Positions 2,927 to 11,206 of a stretch of 64,000 nucleotides of DNA are shown here, piece by piece. A program made the translations under genes and the position numbers. The DNA lies in assembly GCF_000710775.1 (NCBI RefSeq), contig NZ_JOJP01000001.1:1083400-1147399 (forward strand). The letters are read 5' to 3'. The notes beneath the pieces are model-generated. The model searched no databases, was not told the origin of the DNA, and worked only from the letters and a program-made list of their open reading frames with translations. The stretch's first letter is position 1. Every line of letters begins with the position of its first letter. The DNA is from Endozoicomonas elysicola (GTDB lineage: Bacteria > Pseudomonadota > Gammaproteobacteria > Pseudomonadales > Endozoicomonadaceae).

Positions 2927-3082
2927 CCATCCGTAGCCAATCGCATAACATCGTATTTATGATCGATTTCTCGGGCGCTCTGGCTGGGCTGGTTGCATCA
3001 CTGTGCTCTAGCGGCAGGGTACCTGATCATGAAACCCTCGATGCCATGTGGCGGCTACCTGACTGACTCCATGGGGGATAGT

Positions 3083-3604
3083 ATGAAACGTGTAGCCATT
3101 TTACTGTCGGCGCTTCTTGTTGTGGCCGGTGCCAGCTACGCCGGTTTGTTTGGCAGTAATAAATACGAAAAAGAGGTAGAGACGGAAACCAGTGCCGTCA
3201 ACCTAGCTCGGGAAGCAGCCTCCGGCGACTACCTACTGGTAACAACGGCAGAGCTGAAAGCCTGGATGGAGGATGGCAAACCGATGCTGATCATCGATGC
3301 CATGCCGCTGGAAGCCAGCTACAACAAAGCGCATATTCCGGGGGCAAAACAGTTTCTGTTTCCCATTCCGGATATGAAAGAGTGGAACGCCGCTGAAACC
3401 GAGAACCGTTCACTGGAAGATTACCAGACATTATTGGGTAACGATAAAGAAATACCCATTGTCGTTTACTGCGGATTCGTAAAATGCACCCGCAGCCACA
3501 ATGCCGCCATCTGGGCGAAAAAACTCGGGTTTAACAACGTCTACCGCTACCCCGGCGGCATCTATGCCTGGCAGGGGGCAGGCTACTCCATTGCCAGTAA
3601 ATAG
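3083..3604 (+). CDS. Periplasmic rhodanese-like protein
   Basis: 173 residues from ATG 3083, preceded by GGGGGA at 3073-3078. The longer frame from 2993 would bury the signal peptide. Residues 1-20 (KRVAILLSALLVVAGASYA) are a signal peptide. A single rhodanese domain covers about 50-172: TTAELKAWMEDG, the AHIPGAKQF substrate-fold motif, and the active loop VVYCGFVKCTRS with likely catalytic Cys130 and a second Cys135 that could form a disulfide. It ends with the usual NVYRYPGGIYAWQGAGY. Single-domain rhodaneses carry a persulfide. Together with the upstream MauE-like protein, this suggests envelope sulfur or redox work, but the partner is unknown. Confidence 0.85.
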   Translation: MKRVAILLSALLVVAGASYAGLFGSNKYEKEVETETSAVNLAREAASGDYLLVTTAELKAWMEDGKPMLIIDAMPLEASYNKAHIPGAKQFLFPIPDMKEWNAAETENRSLEDYQTLLGNDKEIPIVVYCGFVKCTRSHNAAIWAKKLGFNNVYRYPGGIYAWQGAGYSIASK

Positions 3605-4005
3605 TAACCAGTAAGTCACAATGGTACAGGCTATTGGCGCCATTCTGGTGTCGGCCTGTGCCAGAAGTGCTCTGTTAGAAGCAGGCTTCTTTGTTGAGAC
3701 AAACTCCGAATATAGGCCAAATTGACGCAGATTTATGATTTCTAAAATACGGCTGAGCCCTTATAAACCGTGGGATTATGCTGTAGATAAAAGTCGGTGG
3801 AATAATAATTGGGTTTATCTTTCACTTATGAAATTTATTTGATACGTTGGTACATATTTTTTTGTCAGTCATGGTTAATTGCATCGTACAAAAATAATCC
3901 TAAAAGTGGTTGCTGAGCTATTTCATAACCTGCTCTCGGATGTCAGTAAAAGGCAGAAGTACAAGTGACGGGCGGTAGCGTGCTTTTTCAATTATCAATA
4001 TAACT
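3605..4005 (+). other. Intergenic stretch before the integron relic
   Basis: About 400 bases with no supported gene. The left part reads like a normal 3' flank of the rhodanese gene and the right part is AT-rich. No clear terminator follows the rhodanese stop. The integron integrase remnant begins at 4006 on the opposite strand. Confidence 0.35.
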
Positions 4006-4441
4006 CTATATCGATTGGGCTTCTTGCTCCGGATTGGTGTTTGCCAAAAACATGGGTATCAATCTGAGGGATTTAACATCCTAATGTCCTAACAGTTCTT
4101 GGACTACACGGATATCATGACCTGTTTCGAGTAAGCGCGTTGCAAAACTATGACGAAAAGTATGGCTGGTGATTCGCCGGGGGATGCCTGACTCTTTAAC
4201 TGCTCTTAAGACTTTCCGATAGCTTGAGTTATGCCGGTGATGTCGGCAGATTTGACCTGTGTAAGGGTGTTGACATCGAGAGCTGGAAGGAAAGAGGTAT
4301 TGCCAGGCAAAGTCTTTAGAAGCTGAACTGAATTTTTCAGTAGTGCAGGTGGAAATGATGCCATACCAAAATCATCATCAATGTCTTTGGCATGTATTTT
4401 TTAGCATGCGTGATTTGTTGCTTTATTGATTTAACCAGTTT
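4006..4441 (-). pseudogene. intI: Integron integrase (intI) pseudogene, 5'-truncated and frameshifted
   Basis: Read on the minus strand, the segment gives the C-terminal half of a tyrosine recombinase of the IntI type. The pieces in order are [28 protein letters not shown], then after a frameshift [42 protein letters not shown], and [19 protein letters not shown]. The piece before SHTFRH is the extra IntI-specific patch. After RVVQELLGH comes an in-frame TAG. A second frame change follows, the codon for the catalytic Tyr of the IYTHV motif reads Asp, and a third frame gives LANTNPEQEAQSI before a stop at 4006. The N-terminal half, attI and promoters are missing: at 4441 the sequence switches directly into the 3' end of a cassette gene. 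The gene cannot be functional. Orientation (divergent from the cassettes) is canonical. Confidence 0.88.
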
Positions 4442-4587
4442 TATTGGTAGTCGTATTCTTAACGCTTGAAATTTCCAGATAATGTGCATATAACAAGTCA
4501 TTAAAGCGGGACTGCTAAAGTTTGGCTCGGTTCCACTTCGTTACACAGTTTAGCCAAACATTTATCAGCCCCTTAATGGGGCGTTAT
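4442..4587 (+). repeat. Direct repeat copy A: cassette-gene 3' end plus attC
   Basis: These 146 bases are nearly identical, without indels, to 4888-5033 (constant offset 446). The copy starts inside the last codons of a gene identical in type to the cassette gene at 4605 (reading VVVFLTLEISR then TAA) and includes a full attC site. It appears to be what is left of a duplicated cassette after a deletion joined it to the truncated intI. Confidence 0.85.
4490..4587 (+). repeat. attC recombination site 1 (VCR-like)
   Basis: The 98-base site begins ATAAC and ends GCGTTAT, giving complementary outer cores (R'' and R'). CATTAA and TTAATG plus GGGACTG and CAGCCCC form the inner pairing. GTTTGGCT and AGCCAAAC form the central stem around a loop. 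The outer arms extend to GTGCATATAAC (4484-4494) and GTTATATGCAC (4583-4593). The layout closely resembles the Vibrio cholerae VCR class, which folds as a single-stranded hairpin for IntI. It precedes the cassette gene by 17 bases. Confidence 0.85.
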
Positions 4588-4604
4588 ATGCACAAGGAAG
4601 TCTA

Positions 4605-4928
4605 GTGAATATACATAAACTTGTATCGTTATTTTTAGCAATAATTTACATGCTGATATTTAATGGTTTCTTTGAATATTATTCTGGATTTAATAACGCT
4701 CAAGATTTTGTTGGTTCAGTTCTAACCACTAGAGCAAATGGCGTTTATTATATTTATCTCGCCGCAATTGCTAGCTTATATTTTTTAGTATTTCCTCAAC
4801 ACGCAGCTAGGAAGTTATCACCTTTATCAAAAGGCTTAAAAGAACAAATATTGCCAGCTAATTTTTGGGTTTGTGTAGGTTATTTTTTATCGGTAGTCGT
4901 ATTCTTAACGCTTGAAGTTTTCAGATAA
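4605..4928 (+). CDS. Integron cassette gene: small membrane protein of unknown function
   Basis: 107 residues from GTG 4605, with AAGGAAG at 4594-4600 as ribosome-binding site. Three hydrophobic segments are visible (about 5-25 LVSLFLAIIYMLIFNGFFEY, 48-64 YYIYLAAIASLYFLVF, 87-104 FWVCVGYFLSVVVFLTLEV), so it is an inner-membrane protein. It starts 17 bases after attC1 and stops 7 bases before attC2, the tight packing expected of a gene cassette. With no intI promoter region left, expression would depend on read-through or a cassette promoter. The AT-rich composition differs from the backbone. I do not recognise a family. Confidence 0.8.
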   Translation: MNIHKLVSLFLAIIYMLIFNGFFEYYSGFNNAQDFVGSVLTTRANGVYYIYLAAIASLYFLVFPQHAARKLSPLSKGLKEQILPANFWVCVGYFLSVVVFLTLEVFR

Positions 4929-5033
4929 TGTGCATATGACAAGTCATTAAAGCGGGACTGCTAAAGTTTGGCTCGGTTCCACTTCGTTACACAGTTTAGC
5001 CAAACATTTATCAGCCTCTTAATGGGGCGTTAC
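4888..5033 (+). repeat. Direct repeat copy B: cassette-gene 3' end plus attC
   Basis: Second member of the 146-base direct repeat (first copy 4442-4587), differing by only a handful of substitutions. It contains the last 12 codons of the cassette gene and attC2. Recombination between the copies would delete the cassette gene exactly. Confidence 0.85.
4936..5033 (+). repeat. attC recombination site 2, with altered outer core
   Basis: Same 98-base structure as attC1, but the left core reads ATGAC instead of ATAAC, so the conserved AAC triplet of R'' is changed. The right core GCGTTAC is intact. TCAGCCTCTT also differs by one base from copy 1. The change opposite the recombination point may weaken the fold. 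The site closes the cassette; the following 170 bases show no third attC. Confidence 0.8.
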
Positions 5034-5211
5034 ATACTCGAATTACCCACGAATACCGCAAACTTATTATTGAGTTTTATTAAAGATATCAATAATAGGC
5101 ATCCAGTTTTTGCAGGCAACGCTATTTGTATACTGAATGTATTTGCAATGAAGTTAGAGGTCTGTGTAAAGCAGAACCTAACAGGTTGTTTCAATAACAT
5201 AAGGGATAACA

Positions 5212-5880
5212 ATGACTGGCCAATACCAATTTATCGGTAACGAAAGCAATGGGCTGTTATTAAAAGGCTCGATTCCTGCCGGTAAAGCAGTTGAATTGGC
5301 CGGAAAGGACTTCCATTTTGCAACGTCCAACATGGAAGGGTATGTTCGCTGTGCCCTAATGGTTGTGCAGATTGACGATATTATCCCCTGGAAACTCCGT
5401 CTGTTTAAAACCTCATACCCAGAAGCGGTCTGGTTACTGGATTTTGGTAACGGTGAATTCATGGCGGTAAAAGCGCATAGCATTCCCCGTATGGTCAACA
5501 TCCTGAGGCTTTTCGATAATTACAATACGGTCTCTGGGCAGATGGCTCTGTCAAAAAACGGTGATAGCGCTACGGTTGCTGTCGTTTCAAAGGACGGTCG
5601 CTTTAACGTTGAGCTTAATGGCTCAATTCAGGGGGACACTACGCTGATTAATAAGCTGTGGACTCGCAATAAAAAAGGGAAGTATTACCGTATTCCATGG
5701 GGAGCCTCTGATTGTGATGTTATTTCGCGAATGAACTGTGAGGTCACAGTCGGTGATTTGGGTGCACAGGTGTTTGGCGATCAGGTCGTGTGGGATAACG
5801 ATGCTGTCTACTTCACTAATCGTACTCACTTATGTGGCCCATCCTACGCTCAGGAGCCTGTGCAGTCGTCTAACTGTTAA
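5212..5880 (+). CDS. Hypothetical protein next to the integron relic
   Basis: 222 residues from ATG 5212, with AAGGGA at 5200-5205. The protein looks soluble and beta-rich, with repeated hydrophobic/Gly strands (FIGNESNGLLLKGSIPAG, ATVAVVSKDGRFNVELNG, EAVWLLDFGNGEFMAVK). It has six cysteines, five of them in the second half (CDVISRMNC, HLCGPSY, the C-terminal SSNC). No signal peptide or membrane helix is visible and no catalytic motif is recognised. It lies about 180 bases after attC2, but no attC follows, so whether it was ever a cassette cannot be decided. It converges with a TetR gene. Function unknown. Confidence 0.6.
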   Translation: MTGQYQFIGNESNGLLLKGSIPAGKAVELAGKDFHFATSNMEGYVRCALMVVQIDDIIPWKLRLFKTSYPEAVWLLDFGNGEFMAVKAHSIPRMVNILRLFDNYNTVSGQMALSKNGDSATVAVVSKDGRFNVELNGSIQGDTTLINKLWTRNKKGKYYRIPWGASDCDVISRMNCEVTVGDLGAQVFGDQVVWDNDAVYFTNRTHLCGPSYAQEPVQSSNC

Positions 5881-5978
5881 TGCAGGCGAAGGTCTCTCTT
5901 CTGAATGCGGTACGTCAATCACAAGCCAGACATCACCAGTGATTGCGCTGATTCAAACTCATCCCCCTATACCTTCTA

Positions 5979-6614
5979 TCAAGCCTTTTCTCCTGCCTGA
6001 CTTACGTCTACAACACTCTTATTTTTTACTACCGCTTTGATGACAAACTCACTCAATGCAAGAACCGCATCGGGTTCAGGCACTGTTGTATTTGTATTGA
6101 TAACCGCCCTGTCCAGGTAACTTCGCTGTAAGGTATAGATAATTCCGGCGGTGTGAGCTGTATTCATTGCCCGATCGAATACGTTGTGGGCGATGCCATC
6201 CTTGAGAATTGCCATGATCCGATTGCGCCAGCGGCGTCGAAGTCGGCGAAATAGCGGCTGATAGCGTGTTAAGGTTTCGGTGTCACCGGTGAGCAGTGTC
6301 TGTAAAACGGGCTTGTTGCGCAGAATATCAAATGGCACGCAGATCAGGCTTTGCAGGTCCGCTGTCGGGTCGTCCTTATGAGTAGCAATGTGTGCGCTTT
6401 CTTCCAGCCATTGCGATAGCTCCCTGCGTAACGTGGCTTCATAGAGTGCCTGTTTGTTTTTATAGAAGCAGTAAATCAGTCCTTTCGATACTCCAGCATC
6501 CTGTGCAATGTCATCCATGGATGCACTCTGGTAACCGAAACGGGCAAACCGATGGCTGGCGGCCTGCAAAATGCGCTGATGACGGATTTCACTCTGCTGC
6601 TGTCGTTTGTTCAT
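5979..6614 (-). CDS. TetR/AcrR-family transcriptional regulator
   Basis: 211 residues. The N-terminal helix-turn-helix (about 12-58, ILQAASHRFARFGYQ through VSKGLIYCFYKNKQALYE) is the standard TetR DNA-binding domain. The rest is an all-helical ligand and dimer domain with a basic LFRRLRRRWRNRI helix. It is divergent from the carotenoid oxygenase gene 209 bases away. TetR regulators commonly repress such a neighbour, and a perfect inverted repeat lies at 6783-6795 in front of that gene. Ligand unknown; an apocarotenoid or fatty compound is conceivable from context only. Confidence 0.88.
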   Translation of the reverse strand: MNKRQQQSEIRHQRILQAASHRFARFGYQSASMDDIAQDAGVSKGLIYCFYKNKQALYEATLRRELSQWLEESAHIATHKDDPTADLQSLICVPFDILRNKPVLQTLLTGDTETLTRYQPLFRRLRRRWRNRIMAILKDGIAHNVFDRAMNTAHTAGIIYTLQRSYLDRAVINTNTTVPEPDAVLALSEFVIKAVVKNKSVVDVSQAGEKA

Positions 6615-6782
6615 GAGGTTATTTTCCTCCTTTTCCTTCCCTCATCCTTTGGCTCTCACTCTGAAGGACGCCTCACGTTACCTCGAACCGTCGCTAGAGT
6701 ATAGGTTCAGGGTTTCAATCGCGTCTGGAAAGTAAGCACCCGGTAATATCGGCCTCTGACCCTGTGTAGCCCCTATACTTTG

Positions 6783-6795
6783 TGTGGTTACCACA
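6783..6795. promoter_or_regulatory. Inverted repeat, candidate TetR operator
   Basis: TGTGGT-T-ACCACA is a perfect 6-base inverted repeat with one central base. It sits 28 bases before the carotenoid oxygenase start and directly after a TATACT (6774-6779) that could be a -10 element. The position suits repression by the divergent TetR protein; binding is inferred. Confidence 0.4.
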
Positions 6796-6823
6796 TCACA
6801 CATTTGGTGTATGGAGGCCAGAT

Positions 6824-8170
6824 ATGCCTGAGAACCCCTACCTTACTGGTAACTACGCCCCCGTTGATGATGAATTAACGACATTTGACCTGAAAGTTAC
6901 CGGCTCTATTCCCCCGGAGTTGAATGGCAGCTTATTGCGTATTGGCCCAAACCCGATAAATCCTGATCCTGATGACTACTTCTGGTTTCTCGGAAATGGC
7001 ATGGTTCATGGCTTATGCCTTCAGGAAGGGCGTGCAACGTGGTATCGCAGCCGATATGTGCGGGATGACCAGGTCGTGGCAGCCAAACAATGGCCACCGG
7101 TGGCAGGGCCGGATAATCCTTTACAATTACTCGGTGGCATTGTGAACACCAATATAATCGCTCATGCCGGAAGGTTATGGGCACTGGTTGAAGCGGGCAA
7201 CCTGCCGGTTGAACTGGATAGTGAGCTTGAAACCGTGGCCAGAACGAATATGGGCGGCACCTTGCCCGGTGGGTTTACTGCTCATCCTCACCTTGATCCG
7301 GAAACGGGTGAGCTGCATGCTGTCGTTTATTCCCTGTTCTGGACGCATATTCAGTATCTGGTCGTTGGTACTGATGGCTGTGTGCGAAAATCCATCAATA
7401 TCCAGCTGCCGGGTTTGCCCATGATTCATGACTGCATGTTCACCAGGCACTACGTCATTCTGCTCGACCTGCCGGTGGTCGCTGATGAATCCATACCGGT
7501 AAGCAGTGGTGCGCTGCCATTTCGATGGAGACCCGGCTATGGTGCCAGAGTTGGCTTGCTTCCCAGGGAGGGTACGCCGGAGCAGATATCCTGGCATGAG
7601 CTTGAGCCCTGTTATGTGTTCCATATCATGAACGGTTTCGAGGATGATCAGGGCCGAGTCATACTGGATGTGGTTCGTCACAGCAGTTTTTTCGATGTGA
7701 GCAGTCAGGGGGAAGGGAATAGCAGACCGCCGACTCTGGTGCGCTGGACCATCGATCCTCAACAGACAACCGTTCAGGAGCAGTGCCTGGATGATCGCCC
7801 CCAGGAGTTCCCTAGGATTGATGAACACCTGACCGGAAAACCCTACCGTTATGGTTACACCTCACCATTGCCCACGATTCCTGAAATCGGATTGACAAAG
7901 TACGATCTGAAGACCGGCCGTTCTGAAACTCACCTTGAAGGTAAGTACCGGACCTTTCTTGAGCCGGTATTTGTTCCCTGTGCTCGCCATGCCACTGAAG
8001 ATGATGGCTGGGTTATGGCGTTTGTTTACGATCAAGAAAAAAACAGCAGTGATGTGGTGATTATCCAGGCCCGGGACTTTGCCTCTGAGCCGGTGGCCGT
8101 GATCCATCTTCCACGGCGTGTACCTTTTGGCTTCCATGGGAACTGGGTACCTTCGTCGTCTTTCGGATAG
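6824..8170 (+). CDS. Carotenoid oxygenase (RPE65/CCD family)
   Basis: 448 residues from ATG 6824, chosen because GGAGG at 6813-6817 is ideally spaced; an upstream GTG frame adds 14 unlikely residues. Family features are the N-terminal YLTGNYAPVDDE, LNGSLLRIGPNP, and the four iron-ligand histidines in their usual contexts: FTAHPHLD (154), PMIHDCMFT (202), VFHIMNGFEDD (267) and FGFHGNWVP (438). These enzymes are seven-bladed propellers holding Fe(II) that split carotenoid, apocarotenoid or stilbene double bonds with O2. No signal peptide is seen, so it is cytosolic. A SnoaL-like gene follows 119 bases downstream. Substrate cannot be fixed from sequence; lignostilbene-type or apocarotenoid cleavage are both possible. 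Confidence 0.92.
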   Translation: MPENPYLTGNYAPVDDELTTFDLKVTGSIPPELNGSLLRIGPNPINPDPDDYFWFLGNGMVHGLCLQEGRATWYRSRYVRDDQVVAAKQWPPVAGPDNPLQLLGGIVNTNIIAHAGRLWALVEAGNLPVELDSELETVARTNMGGTLPGGFTAHPHLDPETGELHAVVYSLFWTHIQYLVVGTDGCVRKSINIQLPGLPMIHDCMFTRHYVILLDLPVVADESIPVSSGALPFRWRPGYGARVGLLPREGTPEQISWHELEPCYVFHIMNGFEDDQGRVILDVVRHSSFFDVSSQGEGNSRPPTLVRWTIDPQQTTVQEQCLDDRPQEFPRIDEHLTGKPYRYGYTSPLPTIPEIGLTKYDLKTGRSETHLEGKYRTFLEPVFVPCARHATEDDGWVMAFVYDQEKNSSDVVIIQARDFASEPVAVIHLPRRVPFGFHGNWVPSSSFG

Positions 8171-8289
8171 TCTTTCCTACGGTTTCGCTGACTTTTCAAT
8201 ATTTCATAGTCACTGAGTGCCATCTACTATCGATCGTGCATGTCCGGCATGGTTCCGGGTATTGGCATGGATAATAAATGGAGGTTGGT

Positions 8290-8763
8290 ATGGGACAGTG
8301 GACGAAAGAGCATCTTCTTGATGCCTGGCAGCACTACGAAGCGGTGGTGGAGCGGTGTGGTAAAAGCAATGACTGGAACGACTACGCAGACCTGTTTACG
8401 GAAGATGGCCGTTATGTCGACGATGTCGACCCCGATCGAAACAGACGGGAAGAGATCCGGGATTGGATTACTGGTATCTACACTAACCCGGTTGCCAGGG
8501 CGGTAAGAACCTTTGTGACCAAGTGGTTTATTGTGGATGAAGAAAGAGGCTGGGTGATAGCGGAGTTTGACAATATCTGGGACGACCCGGGTAATGGCCA
8601 GGTGTTCAGCTTCCGCAATTACACGCTGATGAAATACGCCGGTGATTATCAATGGTACTTTCAGGAGGATCAGTACAATCCTCAGAAGCGAATGGAAGCC
8701 GGTATGGGGTGGATGCAGGCACGTCAGGCGGTGAAAAAGAGTGTGAAGGAAATAGTTTCATAG
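8290..8763 (+). CDS. SnoaL/NTF2-like fold protein
   Basis: 157 residues from ATG 8290, with GGAGG at 8280-8284; an ATG at 8278 overlaps that site and is unlikely. The pattern WQHYEAVVERCGKSNDWNDYADLFTEDGRYVDD, RREEIRDWI, then alternating strands (VTKWFIVDEERGWVIAEFDNIW) and YQWYFQEDQYNP is typical of the alpha+beta cone of SnoaL-like/NTF2 proteins. This fold covers polyketide cyclases, ketosteroid isomerases and limonene epoxide hydrolases. An Asp/Asn-rich pocket (DDVD, DNIWDD) is visible. It probably shares a transcript with the carotenoid oxygenase and may act on its product, which is an inference from context. Confidence 0.78.
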   Translation: MGQWTKEHLLDAWQHYEAVVERCGKSNDWNDYADLFTEDGRYVDDVDPDRNRREEIRDWITGIYTNPVARAVRTFVTKWFIVDEERGWVIAEFDNIWDDPGNGQVFSFRNYTLMKYAGDYQWYFQEDQYNPQKRMEAGMGWMQARQAVKKSVKEIVS

Positions 8764-9175: not shown

Positions 9176-10804
9176 TTACCCATGATGCCTTGAACTATTA
9201 AACGATGGCTTTGCCATTATACCCTCTTTGGGGAACGTTGATGTTATACAATGAAATGATCCCTCAAGCTCGTTTGATAACTTCTTGCTTCTACTGGTAA
9301 CTACTTTGAACCCTAGTTTTTTGTAAATCTGTTTTGCTTCTTCATCGGTTGGCTGGTCGAAAGTGGGCATGAATAGTGTATTTCTGACAATTACAGAGTT
9401 TACATAGGTTTCATATTCATTTTCCGGTTGTGGTAACAGTGTGACGGTATATCCCAGTTTCTCGAAACGTTGCTGATAGGCAGGCTGATCGGTGACGACA
9501 TTGTTTGAATCAATAAACTTTACTACTTCATCGGTGTGCCCTACACCTGCTATGTGCTCAAGCCGAATCGTTGTGTTGCAGCCATAGTAATGACTGTAAA
9601 TACGGTCAGGTATCATCTGGGTGTCTTCATTGTTCACGACAACACAGTTGCCCTTGCTGTCGGCCATGAAGTTACCTCCTATAACATCGTAGTGTGGCTG
9701 AGAGACTAATTCTGCATCCAGAAAATGGGCTAAAGCCTCATCTGGCTGAAAAAATGGATTCTTACCGCTGATGAGCTTCAGCTCTCCGGTTTTACCAATG
9801 ACAGGGATGGGAAGGTTATCCCGGGCCCATAAAAGGTTTTTCCCCCCTCGCGGAACGTGCAGTACATGCAAGCGTTCGTCACCAACCAGTGGCCCGTAGT
9901 TAGCGCGAATATGATCGGTACGGTCAGCAGTGGTGTAAACAACCAAATCAACACCGTTGGGAAGTTTGCGTGCAAGTTTACGCTTCATTCCTCTTGCCTC
10001 ATAGGTCGGCTCATCACTCACCGTATCATCACTGAAAAACAAGTATCTGGTGTTTTTTTCATATTCCGCCCAGGGGCGGCCTTCTACCTGTACCGTATCC
10101 TGATCAATCTCAGGAACCTGCTCCGACTCACCGTAAATCTGTCGAAGCAGTTCAAGGTATCGTGCTCTGTCAGCATCAGGATCCAGCTCACTATTACCTG
10201 ATGTGGATACTTCCACCGGTTGCTCAGTGGTCGCTGCTGTTGTGGATGCTTTCACCTCTTTTTCATGAGTGGCTGTTGTTGTGGTTACTTTTAGCTCCTG
10301 CTCAGGAGTGGTTGTCTTTGCAGATACTTTCATTTCTTGCTCATCACTGGTTGGTGTGGAGACCTCAACTCCATTATCCCAGGGGTGCATTTTTCTGGTT
10401 GCCCATTGACTGACATGTTCTGAATCTTCGCTTAAGGCATCAAAAATAAAGGCTTCTGTTGTTGGGGGAATCCATGGTGGTAATCCTTCTGTGGTTTTTA
10501 TTGAATGAGTGACTGGAAGAGGAGGTGTTGTTCTTGCCGTTCGATCAGCCAATGGTGTACTCGAAGACTCTTTAACCCCATTCCCGGCTTGGTGTATTCC
10601 AACAGTGTACCCTGCTCCAAAACCTGCACTAACTAACCCTAAACCAGCAAAACCCCAAGCCAGGGAGGATTTCGCAGGGCACTTACTGATAATCCAGTGA
10701 CCGAAGCGGGAACAATACCCTTGGTCTGCACTGCTTTGCTGAGGCTCTACGTCAATGGTGATAGCCGGGGGAGTAATGAAGCTTGTTGTCTCACAGTTAC
10801 TCAT
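9176..10804 (-). CDS. Membrane-anchored peptidyl-arginine/agmatine deiminase family protein
   Basis: 542 residues from ATG 10804; the longer frame needs a TTG at 10816. Residues about 47-70 (LAWGFAGLGLVSAGFGAGYTVGI) form one membrane segment. A long Thr/Pro/Glu-rich linker (about 75-210) follows, with four imperfect repeats of the kind EQELKVTTTT and EKEVKASTTA. The C-terminal domain (about 240-525) carries the guanidino-modifying signature of the bacterial PAD/AguA family (PF04371-type): LLWARDNLPI with Asp329, VIGGNFMAD, VGHTDEVVKF with His423 and Asp425, and GSFHCITSTFP with nucleophile Cys519. All catalytic positions are kept, so deimination of arginine or agmatine is likely. The anchor and stalk are not usual for AguA and suggest display on the envelope or delivery to a host. 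The gene stands alone. Confidence 0.8.
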   Translation of the reverse strand: MSNCETTSFITPPAITIDVEPQQSSADQGYCSRFGHWIISKCPAKSSLAWGFAGLGLVSAGFGAGYTVGIHQAGNGVKESSSTPLADRTARTTPPLPVTHSIKTTEGLPPWIPPTTEAFIFDALSEDSEHVSQWATRKMHPWDNGVEVSTPTSDEQEMKVSAKTTTPEQELKVTTTTATHEKEVKASTTAATTEQPVEVSTSGNSELDPDADRARYLELLRQIYGESEQVPEIDQDTVQVEGRPWAEYEKNTRYLFFSDDTVSDEPTYEARGMKRKLARKLPNGVDLVVYTTADRTDHIRANYGPLVGDERLHVLHVPRGGKNLLWARDNLPIPVIGKTGELKLISGKNPFFQPDEALAHFLDAELVSQPHYDVIGGNFMADSKGNCVVVNNEDTQMIPDRIYSHYYGCNTTIRLEHIAGVGHTDEVVKFIDSNNVVTDQPAYQQRFEKLGYTVTLLPQPENEYETYVNSVIVRNTLFMPTFDQPTDEEAKQIYKKLGFKVVTSRSKKLSNELEGSFHCITSTFPKEGIMAKPSFNSSRHHG

Positions 10805-11206
10805 GCCATTTGCCAAATGTAATGTACGAATTGTTTAAAGGCTTTAAGTTACCTTGGTTCCAAAAAAGCCTCAGCGGTTCAGCTTTATCAAGGGTAAATA
10901 TATCTGGTTTTGATATAGAGTCAGCACCTTAGAAGTCGGTTTGCTCTTAAGAAGTTTACATATCCAATTATCTCTAATTTTAGCTTTCGAAGTTGAATCA
11001 ATCATCGAAACAGTAAGTGGCTTCATTCTGTTTGAAAACAGCTGGTAAGGAAAATTACCTGTTATTCACGCTTAGAAGAAATACTACTGATTAATCATGA
11101 AAAATACCTGAACACAGGATAGCCTATTTTTTATTTTTACTTTATTGTAATCAAAACCGATTTTTCTTCGTCTTCAATAGTAAAGGGAAAAAATAACTAT
11201 AAACTG
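10805..11206 (+). other. Intergenic stretch without recognised gene
   Basis: About 400 AT-rich bases upstream of the deiminase-like gene (minus strand), so its promoter must lie here. No exact consensus boxes stand out. The last 80 bases are open in the frame of the following anti-sigma-like fragment. Confidence 0.3.

Follow-up and report, generated by a model that had tools for sequence, protein, structure and literature searches.

The integron locus

The window analysed here is the whole stretch of 64,000 nucleotides, G000:C1:1083400-1147399, within the 5.6-Mb genome of Endozoicomonas elysicola (G000). The fossil chromosomal integron in the window is confirmed. The features of the locus are as follows.

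2993..3604, plus strand: rhodanese-like gene upstream of ops (Pfam Rhodanese; same neighbour in the sister genome G016)
3835..3983, plus strand: ops leader repeat, with dispersed copies in the genome and genus (repeat search; alignment of copies)
3971..3981, plus strand: ops element GGCGGTAGCGT (in ACGGGCGGTAGCGTGC), running antisense to intI; no second exact copy in the window; the E. coli rfb leader has an identical string
3995..4438, minus strand: intI remnant, C-terminal third, with stop and frameshifts (TIGR02249, 117 bits; frames and end)
4439..4589, plus strand: 151-bp direct repeat, copy 1, tail of a lost cassette copy and attC1 (96% identity with copy 2)
4485..4593, minus strand: attC1, bottom strand (independent model R2, 48 bits, E 5.5e-7; DNA fold z -7.7)
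4605..4928, plus strand: cassette ORF, 107 aa, GTG start (ORF list; no Pfam family; no relative in genome_contigs)
4885..5035, plus strand: 151-bp direct repeat, copy 2, cassette ORF end and attC2 (96% identity with copy 1)
4931..5039, minus strand: attC2, bottom strand, with drifted outer arms (34.8 bits with independent model R2, E 7e-4; DNA fold z -1.6)
5212..5880, plus strand: 222-aa ORF past the last attC, same direction, not shown as a cassette (ORF list; no Pfam family)

The integrase gene lies on the minus strand, divergent from the cassettes, as the preliminary description had proposed. It matches TIGR02249 (integron integrase) at window 4066-4359 (G000:C1:1087465-1087758) with 117 bits and E 2.5e-33. 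The match spans positions 196-294 of the 315-position profile, with one TAG inside, and stays below the whole-protein cut-off of 265 because the gene is truncated. An open single-frame piece of 85 aa matches Pfam Phage_integrase with E 2.7e-14 and TIGR02249 with E 9.9e-31. The minus-strand frames show frameshifts, and the C-terminus goes on in another frame (QIDTHVFGKHQSGARSPIDIELY) to the original stop codon, TGA at 3995-3997. The remnant is thus present, but its extent, first given as 4006-4441, shifts to about 3995-4438. Compared with eleven IntI proteins it shows 41-50% identity and no clear nearest relative. The gene is a pseudogene fragment; its 5' part, beside which attI would sit, is missing.

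Covariance model R2, built from 20 short attC sites with the window's own excluded and used in a whole-genome search, detects both attC sites that had been described, each on the correct strand. Full stem-loop symmetry, also claimed for both, is borne out for attC1, whose fold far exceeds that of shuffled sequences (0 of 200 as good). The fold of attC2 is not outstanding (12 of 200 shuffles as good) because its outer arms have drifted. The two sites align with seven attC from two relatives and five Pseudoalteromonas/Alteromonas records, and both sides are changed in 10 of the 34 predicted pairs. Their VCR-like character also holds: the nearest sites in the plasmid collection come from Pseudoalteromonas/Alteromonas (76-86% identity), with V. 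campbellii at 73%. A search of phages gave no match for attC1.

As originally reported, one cassette gene lies within the array, the 107-aa ORF, for which the best Pfam match has E 0.22. Because each copy of the direct repeat joins an attC to the 3' end of the cassette ORF, attC1 once closed a second copy of this cassette. In the most economical history, a single deletion would have taken the start of intI together with attI and the 5' part of that second copy. At gathering scores Rfam finds nothing but a tRNA in the window, and a simple scan of 3400-6100 gives 6 promoter-like sites (6.5 in shuffles) and 1 terminator-like site (2.7 in shuffles). Farther along the window, an RPE65-type carotenoid oxygenase gene (6782-8170, plus strand) precedes a small ORF (8278-8763, plus strand) whose SnoaL-like match is sub-threshold. 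A 546-aa protein at 9176-10816 on the minus strand carries a Porphyromonas-type peptidyl-arginine deiminase domain behind a long, repeat-bearing N-terminal part.

The ops element beside intI

The leader repeat ends, just past the intI remnant, in a sequence that includes GGCGGTAGCGTG, which we take to be ops, the loading signal of RfaH. The ops 11-mer is found exactly in the rfb leader of E. coli K-12, used as a control. It is separated from the intI stop by 13 nt, just outside the coordinates first assigned to the integron (4006..5033), and its direction runs antisense through intI and then into the cassettes in sense. When the integron was tested for it, ops was present in the leader and oriented with the genes. 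Among the copies, the Rfam JUMPstart model hits that of the window alone, at 3957-3982 with 22.2 bits (E 0.78), below its gathering score of 35. The leader repeat matches eight places in G000, two of them with just the 22-27 bp end, and 10 of the 12 genus genomes have one or more matches. A transposon end or MITE was considered for the repeat and rejected, as the ops end is the one part widely shared among the copies. The sister genome G016 (G016:C406) has the same MauE-like and rhodanese genes, collinear with the window; it then matches window 3621-4086 (79.6% over 475 bp), ops and intI tail included, and diverges afterwards. This suggests that the arrangement predates the divergence of the two species.

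ops at intI loci of the family

The family is presumably Endozoicomonas and its kin; an IntI match at E ≤ 1e-25 is present in 26 of its 37 genomes, and many of these matches are truncated. G000 itself encodes an intact IntI of 341 aa (ORF C1:3757161-3758186; 450 bits, over the family cut-off), 2.7 Mb from the fossil. It adjoins a fumarase gene and has its own short attC sites. The decayed array does record integron carriage in the lineage, but to call that carriage past, as the preliminary description did, is incomplete, given an intact IntI with attC in the same genome and IntI matches in most genomes of the family. ORFs resembling REP-associated transposases by eye lie near the intact integron (L020:6652-7632, minus strand).

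The family contains 43 IntI matches, of which 31 had a locus and were scanned. An ops element with at most one mismatch lies antisense past the intI match in 29 of these 31 loci (21 exact, 8 with one mismatch). In 28 it is within 140 nt of the match end; in the other it is at +775, because that match ends at profile position 211. The two misses are matches truncated before the C-terminus. No sense-strand copy of ops is found in the 31 loci. The assignment of the family to Endozoicomonas and kin rests on two genome_contigs loci, from E. arenosclerae and E. ascidiicola, that have the same intI-ops arrangement; the E. ascidiicola intI is identical to that of G008:C35.

A set of 26 loci, comprising 25 of the 31 (six truncated or fossil loci omitted) and G134 from another family, defines the geometry more closely. 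The start of ops ranges from -88 to +136 nt relative to the stop codon end and falls at +2 to +20 in 15 loci. Conservation is limited to GGGCGGTAGCGTG and the flanks are unconserved in these loci, which were chosen by ops. The longest ORFs past ops form 20 groups without detected similarity, and the neighbour genes are unrelated. A count with no motif assumed, made over the 150 nt after 18 full-length intI genes, gives the same element: every one of the 14 most shared listed 9-mers overlaps ops, and the leading ones occur in 16 of the 18. A sigma-70 promoter search of the 120 nt before ops shows no signal in the 26 loci (mean best score 7.35, 7.30 in shuffles).

The fumarase locus allows occupied and unoccupied sites to be compared, with 30 of 36 matches having a locus. 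Exact ops is present in all four genomes with a sizeable IntI there and in 0 of the 26 others, which include a one-mismatch copy at +1133 in G019, a 21-residue IntI scrap with no ops in G010 and one tail of only 396 nt. This pattern indicates that at the fumarase locus ops goes with the integron platform.

Outside the family, 4 of 84 IntI loci of the same order (1/24 and 3/60) and 1 of 30 of the same class have ops. These five among 114 loci are all antisense at +11 to +26, and three are exact. In a wider set, the best 80 named loci among the matches listed, two have ops, both from Endozoicomonas, and 0 of the other 78 do. Two-mismatch matches are at noise level in the 80-locus set (5 antisense, 5 sense, 4 for the reversed control), so only zero or one mismatch was counted. 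Three Vibrio plasmid IntI loci have no ops. Since most IntI loci outside the family lack the element, integrons can do without it, and these counts reject the idea that ops is general to integrons. It is a trait common in one family and sporadic elsewhere.

attC clusters and gene-less cassettes

The association of ops extends to the cassettes. With attC models R1 and R2 and clusters called at E ≤ 0.01, each of the eight attC clusters of G000 is preceded in the reading direction, at no more than 2.4 kb, by an ops or leader copy. Five have exact 11-mers (window, 1912848, 3524341, 3975643 and the intact intI), and three have leader copies with two motif mismatches (2706431, 2723689 and 3487776). 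The 12 genus genomes together contain 61 exact ops 12-mers, compared with 3 reversed-motif controls. An attC lies within 6 kb downstream of 16 of these sites, always in the concordant direction (0 discordant), where uniform placement expects 0.27; 157 attC positions were used, 150 listed of 161 and 7 more. intI is within 2 kb of 10 of the 61 sites, all antisense, and 23 have attC or intI. Among the remaining 38, the four in G000 were inspected and comprise three polysaccharide-type clusters and one AAA/HNH gene run. Close to another ops-leader copy and two attC in G000:C1:3480000-3493000 there is also an IntI-like match, badly decayed (25 bits, two stops).

RfaH controls polysaccharide-type clusters, and three of the eight exact ops 12-mers in G000 head such clusters, with GT4/UDP-glucose-dehydrogenase, ABC-2/Wzt export and GDP-mannose-dehydratase genes, respectively. 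At G000:C1:1302000-1312000, where no attC was found, ops heads a same-strand run that includes an adjacent AAA ATPase and HNH nuclease, a pair resembling that of the Septu defence system.

G008 and G017 contain a family of gene-less cassettes whose attC-to-attC length, where measured, is about 510 bp. Thirteen were found with ops (12 exact and one with one mismatch; 12 in G008 and one in G017), and their longest sense ATG ORFs are 6-70 aa in 600-nt stretches. Conservation of ops among cassettes picked by ops is circular and was rejected as evidence. Of the 25 copies picked by their upstream part instead, 12 have exact ops and 8 readable ones do not, while in the other 5 this place is masked or cut off; ops therefore marks only part of this cassette family. 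In the G008 arrays and G017, the two kinds, with and without ops, are otherwise alike. In these cassettes ops is flanked by GCTGGC and GCCAGC arms, retained in most copies. The G008 ops cassette has no match in plasmids.

An RfaH-like factor

The RfaH model TIGR01955 finds matches in each of the 37 family genomes, none over its cut-off, and some of the matches are NusG itself. By sequence and predicted structure, G000 encodes an RfaH-like protein. It is a 215-aa NusG paralog with a NusG N-terminal domain that scores 70.2 bits (cut-off 144.5), and a PDB sequence search at E ≤ 0.01 brings up four RfaH sequences and nothing else. An RfaH-like ORF was obtained from 18 of 19 further family stretches. 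All 19 rows of the alignment keep R81 and G82, which align with the TRG motif of RfaH; the R73 of this motif is named, with K10, as a DNA-binding determinant in PMC7593976. The AlphaFold2 model of the 215-aa protein has a mean pLDDT of 75, lower in the C-terminal part, which is modelled as helical. Foldseek ranks 5ond (E. coli RfaH with ops DNA) first with E 5.6e-7. Autoinhibited RfaH has a helical C-terminal domain (PMC6370827).

A model for reading the array

The presence of ops at the intI tail in nearly all of the related integrons examined suggests that the captured genes may be read as RfaH-controlled operons. We consider it probable that the platform of the fossil integron includes the ops at the intI 3' end and that RfaH loaded there lets polymerase cross the antisense intI and read the array. 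In relatives with an intact integron, a transcript starting beyond intI would reach ops, where polymerase would pause and the RfaH-like NusG paralog of the family would load. The paralog would keep NusG and Rho from terminating, and polymerase would get through some 1 kb of antisense intI, giving untranslated RNA, before reading the cassettes in sense. Such RNA would be a natural Rho target, so that the position of ops makes sense for carrying transcription into the array. RfaH loads at ops and lowers pausing and Rho-dependent termination (PMC2871177). What is observed is where ops lies, its direction and recurrence, its occurrence together with intI at the fumarase locus, an RfaH-like protein and ops at polysaccharide operons of the same genome; loading, antitermination and expression of the array are predicted. 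The window's own ops has stayed intact and is still directed towards the remaining cassette and the ORF at 5212-5880, which an ops-passed transcript would presumably reach. Several points count against this mechanism: there is no promoter signal above shuffles before ops, few IntI loci outside the family have ops (5 of 114), some gene-less cassette copies lack it, the RfaH-like proteins are below the TIGR01955 cut-off, and for Vibrio gene-less cassettes inhibiting Rho left expression unchanged (PMC11014356). The broader proposal, that Endozoicomonadaceae integrons are RfaH operons and that the gene-less cassettes are mobile ops modules reloading RfaH inside long arrays, has in our estimate about an even chance of being right. 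If true, arrays would have long-range, switchable expression rather than a promoter effect that fades with distance.

The same geometry could serve a different end. RfaH-driven antisense transcription might mainly curb intI by interfering with integrase expression, with cassette reading a by-product. In all 29 loci having it ops is antisense to intI, usually just past the stop; geometry alone cannot tell the two apart. However, ops or leader copies also lie upstream of attC clusters with no over-threshold IntI between (several in G000; G016:C23) and inside the G008 arrays, and we judge this reading unlikely. Somewhat less likely still is that the motif only looks like ops and that RfaH is uninvolved; it might then act in pausing, bind IntI or a host factor, or belong to a terminator. 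The low score of the RfaH-like protein and the absence of ops from most IntI loci outside the family would fit this, but the conserved block equals the E. coli ops and heads three polysaccharide clusters in a genome that encodes an RfaH-like protein.

ops also heads non-integron operons in G000, so it might belong to the insertion site, integrons having landed beside existing ops-led operons. Against this, the fumarase sites without a sizeable IntI lack exact ops, and the longest ORFs beyond ops fall into 20 groups for 26 loci; we regard it as improbable. That the window holds an ordinary fossil integron with ops adjacent by chance is the least credible explanation and very improbable. One exact 11-mer per 64 kb is unremarkable alone, but 29 of 31 family loci share position and strand, and the unbiased word count agrees. 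The preferred reading remains that ops is part of the integron platform and serves transcription of the array.

Comparison with known systems

Among the listed titles and abstract openings on integrons with RfaH, ops, JUMPstart, antitermination or Endozoicomonas, none reports such a link, and in the papers examined the main text of those on integrons does not name RfaH, nor that of those on RfaH and NusG integrons; subscription literature is mostly outside this coverage, and an earlier mention is possible. An RfaH loading site in the platform, and in some cassettes, would explain for one lineage how the numerous distal cassettes of a large chromosomal integron come to be expressed. It would also add a new class of RfaH targets.

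The locus shares with sedentary chromosomal integrons (the Vibrio superintegron and similar marine ones) the same TIGR02249 IntI, VCR-like attC sites and an intI divergent from the cassettes. It differs in having ops at the intI 3' end, where the Vibrio sp. HDW18 locus has none. Promoter-bearing gene-less cassettes of Vibrionaceae can influence expression of their neighbours (PMC11014356); some of the G008 and G017 copies have ops instead of a shown promoter. With RfaH/ops operons such as E. coli rfb (JUMPstart) the locus has in common the same ops string, on the non-template strand and ahead of a long same-direction gene run; the genome also encodes an RfaH-like factor, though one below the TIGR01955 cut-off. 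Here, however, the predicted target is a cassette array and the predicted leader is antisense intI.
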